A stretch of DNA of 33,320 nucleotides from a virus, in IMG/VR virus record IMGVR_UViG_3300044612_000182, positions 1-33,320 of that record; one strand, given 5' to 3'. The position numbers were made by a program, and so were the translations under genes. The notes under the pieces were generated by a model. It made no database searches. It saw nothing but the letters and a program-made list of their open reading frames with translations, and was not told the origin of the DNA. This document shows positions 1,804 to 28,785 of this stretch, in pieces (within the stretch, counting starts at the first letter, position 1; each line of letters opens with the position of its first letter).

Positions 1804-3438
1804 TTATGTGTTTAGTTTTAGGATAACAACACCTGAAGCACCAGCACCACCAGTACCTGACGGATCGCCGCCGCCACCACCGCCACCACTGCCTGTGTTT
1901 ACCACACCAGCACTTGCGGTTGCGCTTCCGTTGGTTCCATTTCCTCCGATGCTAGAACCGCCAATTCCTGCTGCACCGCCTGAAAAAGAGCCACCACCGC
2001 CGCCGCCAGCATACGTGGCTGACACTCCACTCATTGAGGAAGTACTGCCAGCGCCGCCGTTGCCACCTGCTGTTGAAGTTCCACCACCGCCACTAGCAGA
2101 CGCTCCGCCGCCTCCGCCAGCGCCAAAATTAGGCCCTGAACCAAAGTTGTCGCCGCCATTATTTCCTTGGGATGGAGACGTTAACGGTGTATTTCCTGCG
2201 CCACCCGGAGATAGAGCAGCCCCTATAATTCCTCCGCCACCGCCAGAACCACCAGATGCAGATAGTGGGCTATTATTCCTGCCGCCACCTCTGCCACCAC
2301 CATTAGATGTAAGTCCGCCAAAAATAGAATTGCTGCCAGAAGTTTGGGCAGCGCCACCTGCTCCAACGGTAATCGTATATTGAGCGCCACTTGATACTGG
2401 CAGACCAGCGCCAGTTCTAAAACCGCCAGCACCACCGCCACCACCACCATTTCCACCACCACCGCCACCTGCTACTACTAGGTAGTCCACGCTTGTCACA
2501 CCGGGTGGAGCAGTCCATGTGCCAGAAGCTTGGAATGTCACTGCGCCTGTCTGTGGGGCTAGGTATCTAATAATGACAATGCCGCTGCCGCCGCTATAGC
2601 CGCCTAAAGTTCCACTTCCACCACCGCCGCCTCCACCAAGATTGGTAGAGCCATTAGAGCCAGCAGACGTTCCTGCTCCATTACCGCCACCGCCTGTTCC
2701 GCCTAAACCACGATTGTTGGCATTAAAGTCTGCCCCACCACCGCCGCCAGCATAAGTAATACTAGAACCAGCAATAGTAGATATTGTTCCATTCCCACCG
2801 TTGCCAGCAAGACTTGAGACGGCAGCAACTCCTACTGCCCCACTTCCTCCGCCACCGCCGCCTAAAAAAAGACTGGGAGCAGTTGCAAAACCAGCGCCAC
2901 CATTATTTCCCTGCGATGGAGAAATTGATGGCGTATTTCCATTACCGCCAGCAAAAGTACCAGAACCGCCACCACCAGAACCACCTGGTATGCCAACGCT
3001 GTTTCCACCACCGCCGCCGCCGCCATTAGATGTAATCGCGCTAAATATAGAGTTGCCGCCGTTTGAGCCAACCCCAGCAGTTCCTGTGGTTGTATTTCCA
3101 GCGCCACCTGCTCCAACAGTAATTTGATATGTTGTGCCGGGCACCACAGGAAAACCTGTGCCAGTTATAAGCCCGCCTGCCCCTCCGCCGCCACCGTAAC
3201 GAGAACCACCACCGCCGCCACCTGCCACCACTAGGTAGTTCACCTGCGACACACCGTCAGGGCATGTCCATGTGCCGGAGCTTGTGAATGACAGCACCAC
3301 CGTGTTGGTGGGTATGCCCGGCCACACGCCTGCTTTTATAGCCTGTAATGCCTGCTGTAGCGTCCAGATGCCAGATGCCTGCGTCGTGCTCGGTATGACC
3401 GGCGCACGCGTCATTATTCTGCCGGGATAATCACTCAT
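1804..3438 (-). CDS. glycine-rich tail fibre/adhesin-like protein, two domain copies
   Basis: A 544-residue protein. An N-terminal leader (YPGRIMTRAPVIPSTTQASG, then IWTLQQA) is followed by two copies of a domain of roughly 240 residues. Each copy opens with F-x-(S/A)-SGTWT-x-P-x-GV, continues YLVVAGGGGGG, YxITVGAGGA, S-x-F-x-x-(I/L)TSNGGG and SPSQGNNGG, and closes with YAGGGGGG. Long polyglycine tracts of this sort can form packed polyglycine-II helices, as in some phage receptor-binding adhesins; applying that here is inference. It probably forms a distal fibre or receptor-binding element. A second gene with the same domain lies immediately upstream. Start: AAGG six bases before ATG. Confidence 0.8.
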   Translation of the reverse strand: MSDYPGRIMTRAPVIPSTTQASGIWTLQQALQAIKAGVWPGIPTNTVVLSFTSSGTWTCPDGVSQVNYLVVAGGGGGGSRYGGGGGAGGLITGTGFPVVPGTTYQITVGAGGAGNTTTGTAGVGSNGGNSIFSAITSNGGGGGGGNSVGIPGGSGGGGSGTFAGGNGNTPSISPSQGNNGGAGFATAPSLFLGGGGGGSGAVGVAAVSSLAGNGGNGTISTIAGSSITYAGGGGGADFNANNRGLGGTGGGGNGAGTSAGSNGSTNLGGGGGGGSGTLGGYSGGSGIVIIRYLAPQTGAVTFQASGTWTAPPGVTSVDYLVVAGGGGGGNGGGGGGAGGFRTGAGLPVSSGAQYTITVGAGGAAQTSGSNSIFGGLTSNGGGRGGGRNNSPLSASGGSGGGGGIIGAALSPGGAGNTPLTSPSQGNNGGDNFGSGPNFGAGGGGGASASGGGGTSTAGGNGGAGSTSSMSGVSATYAGGGGGGSFSGGAAGIGGSSIGGNGTNGSATASAGVVNTGSGGGGGGGDPSGTGGAGASGVVILKLNT

Positions 3439-3446
3439 GTCTTACC

Positions 3447-5138
3447 TTATTGATTGCACTTGATGATGACAATACCAGAGCCGCCAGAGCCGCCGTTTGC
3501 TTGAGTAGGCACTGAAAATCCGCCACCACCCCCACCGCCGCCAGTATTTGCAACTCCGTTTGAGCCCAAAGAAGATGTTGCCACTCCGTCGCCACCCTTG
3601 CCTCCACCACCATTTCCGCCATTTCCACCTAAATTTCCATTTGGATTGGTTGATTGACCGCCACCGCCGCCACCTCCAGCATAGGTGAAAGATGAGCCTG
3701 TAATTGACGAGGCCGTGCCAGCGCCGCCAGCAGTAGAAGCGCCAGCGCCACCTCCTGCGGCATTTGCCGCCGCAGCCGAAGCGCCGCCTCCGCCAGCAGC
3801 AACACCCCAAGATGCGCCTCGACTAGCATTACCACCGTTGTTGCCTTGCGATGGACTAAAATTAGGCGTGTTGCCAGCGCCACCTGTTCCGGCACTAGGA
3901 TCGTTGTTTGATGCTCCTCCTCCAGAGCCACCAGCACTACCGTTATTTGCTGCATTTGGGGCAGAAGTATAAGATCCACCTCCCCCGCCAGCCGTTGATG
4001 TAATTGTGCTAAAAATTGAATCCGCGCCGTTTGATCCTCTAACTCCAGCACTACTTCCAGCACCACCAGCACCAACTGTAATGGTGTATTGTGTTCCAGC
4101 AGTTATAGCTAATGCGGTTCCAGTCCTAAATCCACCAGCGCCACCACCGCCGCCAGTTGCACCACCACCGCCACCACCAGCCACAACCAGATAGTCCACG
4201 CTGGTCACGCCGACAGGAGCAACCCAGTTGGCAGTAGAGTTGAACACAAAGATAGACTGATTAGGTGCTGTGTAGCGTAGGATGACAATACCAGAGCCGC
4301 CGGGACTTGCTGGAATTAACGTCGGGCTAACCGAAGTTCCTCCTGCCCCGCCACCGCCGCCGCCAGTGTTTGCTGTTCCGGGCCAACCACCACCTTGACC
4401 AGGTTGATAACCTCCGTTACCACCCCCGCCTGTACCACCAGGACCGCCCGGCTGACCGCCATCATCTCTTCCGCCGCCACCACCGCCAGCGTAAATTACA
4501 GATGACCCAGAAATAGATGATGCTGTACCGTTACCACCACCACCAGGACTTGCGCCAGCATTTTTTCCAGCCTCGCCTGCTCCGCCGCCACCACCACCTT
4601 TGGATGTAACTGATCCATTGCCGCCATTATTTCCTTGCGATGGGGATGTAGCAGGAGTATTTCCAATCGATCCAGAACTAGCCCCTGCTGTTCCAGCTCC
4701 GCCACCACCACCAGAAGCTCCATTACTTCCAGCGCTAGAACCAGAGCCAAAACCACCACCGTTTGATGTGATTAGTGAGAATACTGAGTTACCACCAAGA
4801 GCAGATGCGGCTCCACCGCTTCCAACGGTAATTGCGTAAGTTGCGCCTGGGGTTACATTAAAAGCAGTACCAGTCCTAAATCCACCAGCGCCACCACCGC
4901 CGCATCCAAGACTTCCTCCGTTTATATTCGATCCACCACCGCCACCACCAGCAACCACAAGGTAATCAACAGCCGTCACACCCGCAGGCGCAGTCCACGT
5001 ACCTGACGCTAGGAACGTCTGGATAATAGTTACCCCTCTAGGCCACGAGCCAAGATTCCAAATGCCGGACGCAAAGCCGGGCGTGTACAGCGGCGAAGTC
5101 GCGCTGATAATGTTGCCGGGATACCCGTGAATCGCCAT
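3447..5138 (-). CDS. glycine-rich tail fibre/adhesin-like protein, two domain copies (paralogue of next gene)
   Basis: A 563-residue protein built like its downstream neighbour at 1804-3438. A short leader (HGYPGNIISATSPLYTPG) is followed by two glycine-rich domains, opening F-x-ASGTWTAPAGVT and FNSTANWVAPVGVT, each with YLVVAGGGGGG, ITVG, TSNGGG or TSTAGGG, SPSQGNNGG and YAGGGGGG blocks. The leader differs from the paralogue's, so the two proteins may dock at different places or serve as alternative adhesins. GGAG precedes the ATG by five bases. Long proline-rich open frames on the opposite strand are by-products of the glycine codons. Confidence 0.8.
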   Translation of the reverse strand: MAIHGYPGNIISATSPLYTPGFASGIWNLGSWPRGVTIIQTFLASGTWTAPAGVTAVDYLVVAGGGGGGSNINGGSLGCGGGGAGGFRTGTAFNVTPGATYAITVGSGGAASALGGNSVFSLITSNGGGFGSGSSAGSNGASGGGGGAGTAGASSGSIGNTPATSPSQGNNGGNGSVTSKGGGGGGAGEAGKNAGASPGGGGNGTASSISGSSVIYAGGGGGGRDDGGQPGGPGGTGGGGNGGYQPGQGGGWPGTANTGGGGGGAGGTSVSPTLIPASPGGSGIVILRYTAPNQSIFVFNSTANWVAPVGVTSVDYLVVAGGGGGGATGGGGGAGGFRTGTALAITAGTQYTITVGAGGAGSSAGVRGSNGADSIFSTITSTAGGGGGSYTSAPNAANNGSAGGSGGGASNNDPSAGTGGAGNTPNFSPSQGNNGGNASRGASWGVAAGGGGASAAAANAAGGGAGASTAGGAGTASSITGSSFTYAGGGGGGGQSTNPNGNLGGNGGNGGGGKGGDGVATSSLGSNGVANTGGGGGGGGFSVPTQANGGSGGSGIVIIKCNQ

Positions 5139-24964: not shown

Positions 24965-25141
24965 ATGGGAAAAACGATATTAGCTGGCATTGCTGCCGGT
25001 ATGTTCATAAACACTGGCGCGATCATCGCAATGGCTTGTGTCGGACAATTAGATGCTGGCAGTGGCTTTTTGCTGGCAGTCTTTTCGCTGGGTATTGCTG
25101 CGCTGGCACTGATCGAGCGCGAGGGGATTCCAAATGAGTAA
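24965..25141 (+). CDS. small two-helix membrane protein
   Basis: A 58-residue protein with two hydrophobic helices (about 3-29 and 34-52: LAGIAAGMFINTGAIIAMAC and GFLLAVFSLGIAALALI). The ATG has GAGG upstream; a GTG four codons earlier is less likely because it lies inside the previous gene. Its stop lies inside the next gene's start (ATGAGTAA). Small early membrane proteins of phages often affect host physiology or superinfection; nothing here decides between such roles. Confidence 0.65.
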   Translation: MGKTILAGIAAGMFINTGAIIAMACVGQLDAGSGFLLAVFSLGIAALALIEREGIPNE

Positions 25142-26405
25142 CTATGACTATTGCGGAAAAAATCGCCTCGATTGGATGGACACACTGGCGCAAGTGCTGC
25201 GCTACCATCCCAGCGCTGATCACTTATGGCACCATCGCGAACAAAACCGCTATCCATTGCACCCAGCGATCCGCGAATCTGTATTGATCGCTGCACCTGC
25301 TGATTGGCATTTGCTGGTGCTGCAATGGCCGCATGTGTCGATTAAAGATGCTGCGCGTCTGGCTTATACGCGAAACGTCGATCATGGGTTCGCTGATCGT
25401 CAGACTGTAACAAGCATTTCAAAATACATAACAGAGCATTTTCCAGCACTGCAATCGCACTTAATCCGAGATATCTGCGCGAAATTTGGCAATCATCAAT
25501 TTGCGATTTCGCATGAAATGGAACAAATGCTCGAATGGCTGGCTGAATCGCCTACTAGCTGTATGGTGCGCCGAAATTGGCAAGCTGGTAGCTGGCACCC
25601 TTATCGCTGCTACGATCCCAAATTTGGCTGGGGACTAGCAGTGCGCCTAGAAAATGGGCAAGTAATGGCGCGCGCGCTGGTCAATGAGCAAAGCAAATCC
25701 TTTGTTCGATCATTCGGCGCAATCGAAAATAATCGCGGTCATTCTCAAAATGATAACGCGCTGAATAGCTGGCTTGAATCGCAAGGGTATCAGTACAGCG
25801 ATGGCTGGTCTGGCTTGCGTCTGGCGAAAGTGGCGCACCCAGATGGTGGCTGGTCTGCGCCCTATATTGATGGCGATACTCAGGCCGTCGATTCGCGCGA
25901 TGGGTATCTGCTGATTACAGAGTGTGGCGATTTTTCCTGCACCAACACAGATGGGTATCTGGATGATAACGAAGATCATTCACACTGCGAGGATTGTGAC
26001 GCGCGAATCAACATGAATAATGGCAGTCACACATGGGCCGGTAGATACGAAGATCGTTTAGTCTGCGATAGCTGCGCTGGCGATTATGTCAATGCTATCG
26101 GCGCAAATGGCAATGAGTATTATGAACATACTAACGATTGCACTTACGTCGAATCGCGCAGCACATGGTACGTTGACAGATACATGAGCGAAAACGGCAT
26201 TGTGTATTGCGATGATACCGAAACCCATGAGCATCAAGATGATGCCTTGTATCTTGCACTGCGCGATGAGTGGGTACAGTCAGATTGCACTTATGCGGTC
26301 TATTGCGAGGATGACGATCAACACCAGCACATTGATGATTGCGTGTTGCTGGATGATGGCACCTATACATTACGCACTGACAACGAAAGCGAGGCAGCAG
26401 CATGA
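25134..26405 (+). CDS. large unknown protein with C-terminal zinc ribbon and His/Asp repeats
   Basis: A 423-residue protein. Residues 1-140 are helical with many Trp and His. Residues about 150-265 are beta-rich, with GWGLAVRLENGQVMARALVN and DGGWSAPYIDGDTQAVDSRD. A zinc ribbon follows, C285-x-x-C288 and C311-x-x-C314. The tail (326-415) has imperfect repeats of the form H-x-x-(D/N)-D-C followed by TYV or VLL. I recall similar unassigned proteins in phages but no function. It overlaps the membrane gene by eight bases and the peptidase gene by four, so the three are coexpressed. GATC sites are dense here. Confidence 0.75.
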   Translation: MSNYDYCGKNRLDWMDTLAQVLRYHPSADHLWHHREQNRYPLHPAIRESVLIAAPADWHLLVLQWPHVSIKDAARLAYTRNVDHGFADRQTVTSISKYITEHFPALQSHLIRDICAKFGNHQFAISHEMEQMLEWLAESPTSCMVRRNWQAGSWHPYRCYDPKFGWGLAVRLENGQVMARALVNEQSKSFVRSFGAIENNRGHSQNDNALNSWLESQGYQYSDGWSGLRLAKVAHPDGGWSAPYIDGDTQAVDSRDGYLLITECGDFSCTNTDGYLDDNEDHSHCEDCDARINMNNGSHTWAGRYEDRLVCDSCAGDYVNAIGANGNEYYEHTNDCTYVESRSTWYVDRYMSENGIVYCDDTETHEHQDDALYLALRDEWVQSDCTYAVYCEDDDQHQHIDDCVLLDDGTYTLRTDNESEAAA

Positions 26406-27475
26406 TCATCTTACATAAGACACTTGATCGCGCACTGTCGATCAAAAGACCGCATGGCGCAGCAGCTACCGCGAAATTTTCGCGCTGGCTGGCTGACAAT
26501 CTGCCGGATGGTATCTGCGCCGAATTTGATGCTTGCGGAAATTTGCACGTTGACACTCGCGCAGAGGATGGCAATCGCACGTTATTTGTCGCACACGTTG
26601 ACACTGTGCATAACAAGTCTGGCAAAAATCGCATCAAAAAAACACGCACGCACTGGCACGCTGATGGCGATGTTTTAGGTGCTGATGATGGTGCTGGGTG
26701 CGCCATGCTGATGCACTTAATACATTCTGGCGTGCCAGCGTATTATGTTTTTACTGTTGGCGAGGAAAAGGGTGGAATCGGCGCGACATGGCTGGCAAAG
26801 AATAAGCCCGATCTACTGCGCCAGTTTGATCGCGCAATCGCTTTTGATCGTCGCGGTATTGATTCTGTTATCACGCATCAAGGCTGGGGCCGATGCTGCT
26901 CTGATGCTTTCGGACAGGCATTGTGCGATTCGCTGGGATCGTATGACCAAAACCTGATGCACTTGAATGATGACACTGGTGTTTATACAGATACCGCCGA
27001 GTTTATCGATCTGATCCCAGAGTGTACAAATATCAGCATCGGCTATTCAAATGAACACACGGTAAACGAATCATTGAACATTCTGTATTTCAATATGCTA
27101 GCTGCTGCTGCTGCGCGTGTTGACTGGGATAGTCTGCCAGTGGCGCGTGATCCTCGCGATCCTGATCCTGATGACTGGCAGAGATACAGAGGCAGCTACT
27201 ATTCCACTGCCAGCTATTCGAGTGCCCATGATGATTTGACAGATTATCTATCTGCTGCGCTGCTGGATGCTCAATACGGACACACTCGCGAATTGATCGA
27301 AATAGTGGCTGAGTATGCTTTCCCAGATGATCCGCATCTAATGGCAAAGCACTTGAATCCTCGCAAACTCGATTATCGGATCGTTGACGATCTGCTGGCT
27401 GATCTCGCCAGCGAATTGATCAGCGCAGATGATGCCATGCTGATGCTTGCTGACGAAATGTATGATTCTTTGTGA
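26402..27475 (+). CDS. M20/M42-type zinc metallopeptidase-like protein
   Basis: A 357-residue protein with the full dinuclear zinc set of clan MH peptidases, in order: LFVAHVDTV (H65, D67), VLGADDGAGCAML (bridging D95 or D96), VGEEKGGIGA (E121 base, E122 ligand), AIAFDRRG (D149) and GYSNEHTVN (H219). Such enzymes are aminopeptidases or amidohydrolases acting on short peptides or acylated amino acids. The C-terminal third (about 240-357) is acidic and outside the peptidase fold. It overlaps the upstream 423-residue gene by ATGA and is closed by a strong terminator. Substrate unknown. Confidence 0.8.
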   Translation: MIILHKTLDRALSIKRPHGAAATAKFSRWLADNLPDGICAEFDACGNLHVDTRAEDGNRTLFVAHVDTVHNKSGKNRIKKTRTHWHADGDVLGADDGAGCAMLMHLIHSGVPAYYVFTVGEEKGGIGATWLAKNKPDLLRQFDRAIAFDRRGIDSVITHQGWGRCCSDAFGQALCDSLGSYDQNLMHLNDDTGVYTDTAEFIDLIPECTNISIGYSNEHTVNESLNILYFNMLAAAAARVDWDSLPVARDPRDPDPDDWQRYRGSYYSTASYSSAHDDLTDYLSAALLDAQYGHTRELIEIVAEYAFPDDPHLMAKHLNPRKLDYRIVDDLLADLASELISADDAMLMLADEMYDSL

Positions 27476-27483
27476 CTAAAGCC

Positions 27484-27519
27484 AGCCAGTGCTGCCAGCA
27501 ATGGCGCACTGGCTTTTTT
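27484..27519 (+). terminator. strong intrinsic terminator after the metallopeptidase gene
   Basis: A 9-bp perfect stem (AGCCAGTGC with GCACTGGCT) is interrupted by one bulged T and continues as GCCA/TGGC capped by a GCAA tetraloop, with a run of six T. It lies nine bases after the peptidase stop codon and should end the first plus-strand transcript. Confidence 0.9.
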
Positions 27520-27740
27520 ACGTCTATACAGTGCCGATCCTGATGCGCCAGCATCAGAGGCACCAGAGGCAGAGGCACCAGTACAGGCAGCACTAGCAGT
27601 GCCAGCACTAATAGCACTGGCAGCAACACCAGCAATTGATGTTAATTTGATAACGAGATCGCACTGGATCGGATCGGCAGAGTATGGGTGAGTGAGTATG
27701 GGTGAGTTTGTATGCGTGAGTTCACAACGAAAGGGGAGTT
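27520..27740 (+). other. intergenic region with low-complexity and 14-bp repeats
   Basis: Between the terminator and the next gene there is a GCA/CCA-rich low-complexity stretch (27536-27620). It is followed by an AT-richer part and three direct repeats of 14 bases just before the Shine-Dalgarno (GGGGAG) of the gene at 27741. A new promoter must lie here if the terminator is efficient, but I cannot identify one with confidence. Confidence 0.6.
27682..27723 (+). repeat. three 14-bp direct repeats
   Basis: Units at 27682-27695, 27696-27709 and 27710-27723 read GTATG(G/C)GTGAG followed by three variable bases. They are head to tail with no spacer, 18 bases upstream of the next start codon. They could be an activator or repressor array or a remnant of slippage. 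Confidence 0.75.
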
Positions 27741-27929
27741 ATGAATAAACTTTTTTATGTCAGGTTTTATTCCCATCCACAGAATTGCCATGAGCGATTT
27801 TTGTGGACTGCGGAAAACCGCGAGGCGATGGAAACGATAGTGCAAGACTACGAAAAGCAATCGTCGTTTCGCGCTGAAGTCATTCGGTATGTGTGCAACA
27901 CGCCCGATGAAGTAGCCAACGATTTATAG
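27741..27929 (+). CDS. small unknown protein, first gene after the terminator
   Basis: A 62-residue protein, MNKLFYVRFYSHPQNCHERF onward, with a beta-strand start and a helical ENREAMETIVQDYEKQS segment. GGGGAG precedes the ATG by four bases. No family recognised. It starts a run of five short plus-strand genes that could be host-takeover or anti-defence proteins judging only by size and early location. Confidence 0.65.
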   Translation: MNKLFYVRFYSHPQNCHERFLWTAENREAMETIVQDYEKQSSFRAEVIRYVCNTPDEVANDL

Positions 27930-27941
27930 AAAGGGTGAGCG

Positions 27942-28163
27942 ATGAACTTTGATATTGATACGCAGGATGGCATGGCAAATTCTGTGCGCTGGACTGAAGC
28001 GATGTTCAGTCAAATTAAAGATGGCGGCACTTGGATGATCCCGCGCAGCGGCACAGTTGTAAGGGTGAGCCACAAAGATAAGACCGTCAGCATTACCGCT
28101 AGTATGTATCCAGAGAATAGCCTTCGCCGCGTTATCAAGGCGATGGGTTGGACAATCAAATAG
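27942..28163 (+). CDS. small unknown protein
   Basis: A 73-residue protein: MNFDIDTQDGMANSVRWTEA, then FSQIKDGGTWMIPRSGTVVR and a helical end (ENSLRRVIKAMGWTIK). The strand-strand-helix order with 'GGTWMIPRSG' resembles small alpha/beta phage proteins of unknown role. AAAGGGTGAG precedes the ATG. It follows the previous gene after 12 bases and is likely cotranscribed. Confidence 0.65.
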   Translation: MNFDIDTQDGMANSVRWTEAMFSQIKDGGTWMIPRSGTVVRVSHKDKTVSITASMYPENSLRRVIKAMGWTIK

Positions 28164-28174
28164 GGGATTAAACA

Positions 28175-28492
28175 ATGAACACATTTACATTAACTGACGA
28201 CGAATTTTTTCGCTGGTATCAACCACAACAAAATCCATTCGACGGCAATGCTTCATATGATGGTTGCATGTTTGAAACTTACGGTAAAGAACACGATCAC
28301 ATAAAACTAGTACACGAACTCGCGCCTGATCGTATTTGGACTGTGCTTGATTGTGACGGCAAAACCATAGTTGCCAATGGCTATCACTTTGTAAACCGCA
28401 TGGGTTATTTAATTACAGAAATACCCGCGCCAGAAGGCATGTACTTTGAAGTCTTGGACGAAAACGATTTTGACTATCAAGCAACCATTTAG
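28175..28492 (+). CDS. acidic small unknown protein
   Basis: A 105-residue acidic protein. It begins MNTFTLTDDEFFRWYQPQQN, continues FETYGKEHDHIKLVHELAPD, RIWTVLDCDGKTIVANGYHF and VNRMGYLITEIPAPEGMYFE, and ends in an acidic tail. The net negative charge and small alpha/beta look are shared with many phage inhibitors of host enzymes, but that is only suggestive. GGGGA lies upstream of the ATG. No family recognised. Confidence 0.65.
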   Translation: MNTFTLTDDEFFRWYQPQQNPFDGNASYDGCMFETYGKEHDHIKLVHELAPDRIWTVLDCDGKTIVANGYHFVNRMGYLITEIPAPEGMYFEVLDENDFDYQATI

Positions 28493-28503
28493 GAGATCAG
28501 ACG

Positions 28504-28785
28504 ATGAAAACCATTACCGTACAAATACCAGACCACGTAACTGAAACAGAGGCTCATGCCAATATTGCCCGACTGTTTAGCCCAGACTGGTTAGCAAGCT
28601 GGTGGAGCATTGAGGATGTACAGGGAGAAAGACCATATCTAACAGACGATCAGGCGCGCGAAGTGCTGCACGCAATAGATCGGAAACATGATGCAAACAT
28701 CGGCATCAATTGGGACTTCATCCAAGACGTTGCAGATATGTTATTCGACGATCCCGAAGAACTGATAGAGTGCGAGGATGACTAG
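28504..28785 (+). CDS. acidic small unknown protein
   Basis: A 93-residue acidic protein with a ubiquitin-like opening strand (MKTITVQIPDHVTETEAHAN), a WLASWWSIEDV segment, LTDDQAREVLHAIDRKHDAN and an acidic end (FDDPEELIECEDD). 'LTDDQAREVLHAIDRKHDA.IGINWD' looks like a helix-turn pattern seen in small phage proteins of unknown function. AGGAG is upstream of the ATG, and its stop overlaps the next start. Confidence 0.65.
   Translation: MKTITVQIPDHVTETEAHANIARLFSPDWLASWWSIEDVQGERPYLTDDQAREVLHAIDRKHDANIGINWDFIQDVADMLFDDPEELIECEDD

Follow-up and report, generated by a model that had tools for sequence, protein, structure and literature searches.

The locus analysed here raises the question of what a phage does with a predicted intracellular metallopeptidase whose gene lies outside its structural block, and whether the gene that overlaps its start is part of the answer. 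The peptidase itself belongs to an already catalogued phage family, phrog_4191, which is annotated 'peptidase' in many phages; in all, the annotation occurs in hundreds of sequenced phages, and the gene is a core gene in its podophage genera. The larger result, and the one worth following, is its conserved pairing with a protein that contains an uncharacterised domain, which we name SCM after the Ser-Cys-Met of this core domain. The linkage persists across Thermus, Cellulophaga, and huge phages and thereby offers an entry point to function; cultured phages of Klebsiella, Pectobacterium, Cellulophaga, and Thermus carry the pair.

Gene layout of the window

The window, i.e. the whole stretch of DNA that was analysed, is a 33,320-base virus record. 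A minus-strand block comprises the structural and packaging genes, namely two adjoining tail-fibre-assembly-like genes and those for the head protein, the portal, the large terminase subunit, and a candidate small one, and a plus-strand group (25134-28785) runs opposite to this block and meets minus-strand primase, helicase, and ParB-like genes. The peptidase gene is the second of the plus-strand group (Table 1), away from the lysis genes as the original prediction had it. A lysis or virion role is thought unlikely, because the gene stands off the structural block in this divergent group and its relatives occur in early regions. Relatives in Autographiviridae loci precede the primase (see also PMC6115819), and the support for the early-type operon that had been proposed is thus one of analogy. 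The ATGA overlap between the stop of the partner gene and the start of the peptidase gene makes translational coupling of the two likely.

Table 1. Coordinates of the features of the peptidase and partner genes in the window.
Feature	Position	Strand	Basis
Metallopeptidase gene, compact (lidless) clan MH, phrog_4191 family, 357 aa	26402..27475	+	open frame, family profile, fold search
Partner gene, 423-aa SCM-domain and zinc-ribbon protein	25134..26405	+	related to phrog_6980/phrog_13313
ATGA overlap, partner stop/peptidase start	26402..26405	+	4 bp
SCM core, residues 139-260, with invariant C143, R180, P243, D246; GNAT-like fold suggested	25548..25913	+	alignment, fold search
Zinc ribbon, C285, C288, C311, C314	25986..26075	+	alignment
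Peptidase catalytic domain, residues 1-250	26402..27151	+	model, alignment
Peptidase ligand codons	H65 26594, D67 26600, D95 26684, E121 26762, E122 26765, D149 26846, H219 27056	+	alignment
Family signature DRRG, residues 149-152 (metal ligand D149, then invariant R150)	26846..26857	+	alignment
Peptidase C-terminal helical domain, residues 276-354	27227..27463	+	pLDDT and DSSP

Neither a tRNA nor an Rfam family was found within the window. On the 3' side, three small plus-strand genes follow (27942-28785; 73, 105, and 93 aa), only the last of which (93 aa) has a family match, phrog_10258. Between 24600 and 29000 we observe 13 terminator-like sites, against 3.9 expected from shuffles, and several of them are on the strand opposite to the partner and peptidase genes. 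Two adjoining minus-strand genes at 1804-5138 each match phrog_2295 and the tail-fibre-assembly family phrog_863, suggesting a duplication.

Metal site and fold of the peptidase

The peptidase frame gives matches far beyond chance, and over the catalytic domain (residues 5-271) it matches the phrog_4191 'peptidase' profile with an E-value of 6.3e-69. Relatives of this family were found by tblastn in 364 phage records, mainly from Klebsiella, Pectobacterium, and Vibrio Autographiviridae but also from Thermus siphophages and huge phages; 389 of 50,697 phage records carry such a peptidase. The podophage proteins p11 of Klebsiella KP34, PhiM1_10 of Pectobacterium, and gp7 of Vibrio VP93 (PMC4411677, PMC6115819) belong to the same family and have the same ligands and the same upstream neighbour. 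The podophage members are roughly 30-43% identical to the window peptidase over the catalytic domain, whereas the latter has a longer C-terminal helical domain, preceded by a disordered linker (~255-273, from pLDDT and DSSP), and the virus of the window has a packaging and replication gene layout unlike that of the KP34, PhiM1, and VP93 podophages.

All of the residues that the original prediction had named as a full set of clan MH ligands (H65, D67, D95, D96, E121, E122, D149, and H219) are present at their positions. Seven of them are invariant in 121 of 121 phage or prophage relatives, and the fold search agrees with this assignment. The exception is D96, which is Cys or Asn in 11 of the 121 and is therefore ruled out as an essential ligand; D95 never varies, making it the likely metal-bridging Asp. 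Since ligand loss occurs in 0 of the 121 relatives, we reject the reading of a degenerate, dead enzyme. On sequence and model, the protein is thus a clan MH metallopeptidase with a complete predicted set of metal-site residues, and we infer the geometry of this site from the fold and the sequence alignments. R150 and N210 are also invariant in the 121 relatives, and are found in 7 and 12, respectively, of 50 cellular relatives. In Pseudomonas phage YMC11/06/C171 (L015, 3989-4977), the peptidase is split over two overlapping frames, through a frameshift or a sequencing error.

The AlphaFold2 model, built from an 82-sequence alignment (pLDDT 92, pTM 0.76), has 203 PDB fold matches with E of 0.001 or better. 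Peptidase T (3gb0, E 7.6e-10) comes at the top, followed by many M42 TET enzymes, and the Streptomyces M28 aminopeptidase 1cp7 is matched at E 1.4e-7. The TM-scores of these matches lie around 0.5, a value that would follow if the model and the PDB entries had no more than the catalytic domain in common. Profile matches among solved proteins point in the same direction, with peptidase T 3gb0 at E 4.6e-18, TET1 peptidase at 2.3e-10, and carboxypeptidase G2.

The original prediction had read the ligand order as that of M20 and M42 peptidases and had called for a structural comparison with both. The order holds for clan MH generally, and the confident model does match peptidase T, M42, and M28 enzymes, but the accessory domains of M20 and M42 are missing. 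The distance between D149 and H219 is 70 residues in the window protein and 63-74 in the phage set, compared to a median of 181 in cellular PepT-like relatives, which means that the M20 lid is absent. Indeed, the peptidase T-like M20 enzymes (3gb0, 3rza), which are the best sequence and fold match and whose catalytic residues align, possess a lid domain of their own, roughly 110 residues between the last two ligands, that the phage peptidase lacks. The M42 or TET aminopeptidases have their ligands in common with the phage enzyme but carry an insert between HxD and the bridging Asp; this stretch covers 24 profile positions in the window protein versus 105 residues in 2cf4, leaving no M42 insert. 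With spacings of 28 and 70 residues, the peptidase shows the M28 trait of having no inserted lid or PDZ-like domain, and it resembles the Streptomyces griseus enzyme 1cp7 in its compact single catalytic domain and its ligand order, whereas the FDRxG signature and the C-terminal helical domain distinguish the phage family from it. M28 aminopeptidases are usually secreted.

The Pfam scores follow a similar pattern. M28 (PF04389) passes marginally (21.9 bits, cut-off 21.3) and is the commonest Pfam match in the family (77 of 82 members, E up to 0.01), M42 gives a local match just below its cut-off (22.1 bits versus 23.2), and M20 falls below (16.3 bits versus 24.6). The missing accessory domains and the sub-threshold scores rule out full M20 or M42 membership, and as judged from sequence and model the peptidase is a compact, M28-like enzyme rather than a typical M20 or M42 one.

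The SCM protein and its linkage to the peptidase

The zinc ribbon originally noted in the neighbouring gene is borne out by its four Cys residues (Table 1). In an alignment of 74 partner sequences, the invariant residues are C143, R180, P243, D246, G274, and C285; the most conserved part is the SCM domain, which is separate from the zinc ribbon that follows it. The related families phrog_6980 and phrog_13313 have no assigned function. The partner has no significant Pfam match, no GNAT-domain family occurs among the Pfam matches of the 74 members, and the SCM domain gives no Pfam or PDB sequence match. The model of the partner (pLDDT 92, pTM 0.65) has weak PDB fold matches, the best at E 0.016 and with TM-scores of at most about 0.38, and all 50 matches listed are of the GNAT superfold, including FemX, MprF, ATE1, leucyl/phenylalanyl-tRNA-protein transferase, and acetyltransferases. 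These weak but consistent matches are suggestive of a GNAT-like transferase fold. The partner nevertheless differs from these transferases in its invariant Cys-Met, its zinc ribbon, the lack of a sequence match, and the weak scores, and no CoA-binding P-loop was recognised in it by eye. A BFVD match to a phage protein named 'Amidoligase enzyme' (E 7.6e-5) stays a lead; no amidoligase domain was found in ten SCM proteins scanned by Pfam. PcfJ-like matches were set aside as too weak, and a weak SngA match of the Thermus partner was taken as chance.

The link between the two genes, for which the original prediction had proposed a joint assay, proves to be real, and much stronger and wider than the sequence alone could show. 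Of the 114 testable loci that the peptidase retrieved, 104 have the partner directly upstream of the peptidase gene, and 35 of these share the 4-bp overlap. Profile searching, a more sensitive comparison, identified the partner in Pectobacterium phage PPWS1 and Thermus phage TSP4 as well, bringing adjacency to 106 of 114. The upstream partner of TSP4 is annotated as 205 aa and has no zinc ribbon, and a second SCM gene lies on the other side of the peptidase. Peptidase genes without an SCM neighbour include those of L106, L108, L110, L116, L117, and L121, and both copies in the huge phage L008. In P23-45/P74-26, the SCM gene is far from the peptidase; gp1 of the cultured Thermus phage P23-45 (L176, 42-1142) is an SCM-domain and zinc-ribbon-like protein.

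Genes that adjoin each other within a single phage lineage may simply have been inherited together, and one group of aquatic phages dominates the loci fetched with the peptidase, so that this set is not a fair sample alone and the reciprocal test is the fairer one. That scan was seeded only with five SCM domains from the huge phages LR756504 and LR756502, in which SCM proteins lie near the peptidases, and returned 21 loci. Once three loci from the source phage or a near twin of it (L177, L178, L182) and two duplicates (L180, L181) are set aside, 16 remain, and in 13 of these a peptidase gene adjoins the SCM gene on one side or the other, although the peptidase is rare among phage records. A more conservative figure is 12 of 15, as L194 and L195 look like near copies. 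The order is peptidase-SCM in most SCM-seeded loci and SCM-peptidase in podophages. The two orders, together with the double flanking in TSP4, indicate that the linkage outlived rearrangement, which implies a shared pathway.

The peptidase and SCM genes are also neighbours in two Cellulophaga phages, Calle_1 and phi38:1; the SCM protein of the latter is picked up by the window-type SCM profile (2.3e-5), a match that connects the two SCM groups. The pair thus spans Autographiviridae, Thermus, Cellulophaga, and huge phages, and prophages. In their available text, PMC4411677 (KP34-like phages) and PMC6115819 (PhiM1-like phages) list both the peptidase and the hypothetical gene just before it as core genes, and remark on no link between them. 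All of this suggests that the peptidase and the SCM protein have a joint action, with proteins or peptides inside the infected cell as substrates.

Possible functions of the pair

We propose, with a probability of about one half, that the peptidase is an intracellular two-metal exopeptidase-type hydrolase forming one half of a conserved two-gene phage module with the SCM protein. By comparison with clan MH, whose two-metal hydrolases of this build mostly cut at peptide ends, a water molecule would be activated between the two metals with E121 as general base, and the enzyme would cleave an amide bond, either in a small peptide or at the terminus of a protein; R150 might help to hold the substrate. 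The missing lid and the additional arginine beside a metal ligand, R150, suggest a substrate set unlike that of PepT. The SCM protein, with its GNAT-like fold and invariant Cys, may act on the same substrate, although this part of the proposal has less support. Given a transferase-like partner, the simplest schemes are those in which an acyl, aminoacyl, or peptide group is first added and then taken off, or is presented and cut: the SCM protein might transfer an acyl or aminoacyl group for the peptidase to remove or trim, or it might bind the target and present it for cutting. The target could be a host or a phage molecule, and the pair would probably serve to take over the host or to shield phage functions while infection proceeds. 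Against such a module count the weak GNAT matches, the lack of an agreeing sequence profile, the peptidase genes that have no SCM neighbour, and the distant SCM gene of P23-45/P74-26.

If both proteins act on one substrate, a widespread and unstudied phage route of protein or peptide modification would be exposed. A bolder version, which we regard as fairly improbable, is that the SCM protein and the lidless peptidase make up an undescribed phage-wide modification system for proteins or peptides, in which a GNAT-like enzyme using its invariant Cys or a bound aminoacyl or acyl donor would attach a group to targets of the host or the phage and the metallopeptidase would remove or trim it. Peptide-ligase enzymes have been predicted in phages (PMC4431377), and a survey of jumbo phages put forward functions directed at the host both for the GNATs of phages and for those of their peptidases that have a patchy distribution (PMC7824862); the available text of these two papers does not describe the peptidase-SCM pair. 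Our literature search found no functional study of the phrog_4191 peptidase family.

Peptidase T and M42 enzymes finish peptide breakdown in the cell, and as these intracellular enzymes are the best matches, the phage peptidase could be a stand-alone scavenging or housekeeping exopeptidase that completes the breakdown of host peptides and feeds phage protein synthesis, its neighbour being an unrelated early gene inherited with it. The phage and prophage copies that have no SCM neighbour, and the retention of a chromosomal lidless relative in Bacilli, agree with this. However, linkage in 13 of 16 SCM-seeded loci and in both orders is hard to credit to inheritance alone, and the missing lid and the invariant R150 and N210 separate the phage family from the lidded PepT, so that we consider scavenging rather unlikely. 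Anti-defence or host takeover, along the lines of the original prediction, in which an early-made pair would disable a host defence or protein through cleavage or modification of one particular protein, peptide, or small molecule, is in our view unlikely as well. The early-region position of the Autographiviridae relatives, the multiplication of SCM genes and, to a lesser extent, of peptidase genes in huge phages, a pattern that conflict genes would show, and the proposal in the available text of PMC7824862 that phage GNATs and peptidases target host proteins all speak for it. On the other hand, both genes are core in the KP34-like genus and in PhiM1-like phages, as far as the available text of PMC4411677 and PMC6115819 goes, a status more in keeping with a general need than with an arms race. 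Neither the peptidase (P0001) nor the partner (P0002) matches a PADLOC model, which speaks against a known defence protein for the pair, PADLOC holding defence rather than anti-defence models.

Clan MH includes deacylases and carboxypeptidase G2. The fold might accordingly serve an amidohydrolase that deacylates or deamidates a small metabolite, a nucleobase adduct, or a cofactor, and both the unusual R150 beside a metal ligand and the presence of CPG2 and N-acetyl-ornithine/lysine deacetylase among the weak matches are compatible with such an activity. The closest families by sequence and fold are peptidases, however, and the window genes that were examined include none recognisable as serving nucleobase modification; we consider this possibility very unlikely. 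The two-gene module with an exopeptidase-type hydrolase is the reading that we favour.

Several relatives show further arrangements. Chromosomal relatives occur in a few Bacilli (such as L122 5443-6804, L124 5344-6657, L153 5037-6600), near a TPR-like protein; some of them have a different domain, which bears an S[FC]CDGH-type motif, either fused to them or ahead of them. The huge phages LR756504 and LR756502 (L174, L175) each encode several SCM proteins of 330-750 aa within one genome, and two adjoining peptidase paralogues, one of which has a long C-terminal extension; SCM tblastn places number 7 to 15 per huge-phage record. In Enterococcus phage VRE9_4 (L200, 2781-6106), a phrog_34186 peptidase relative has a phrog_18912 protein on either side. 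These two flanking proteins are paralogues and may be further SCM-like partners, as they show a conserved Cys and, after it, an RxG(M/V)F pattern.
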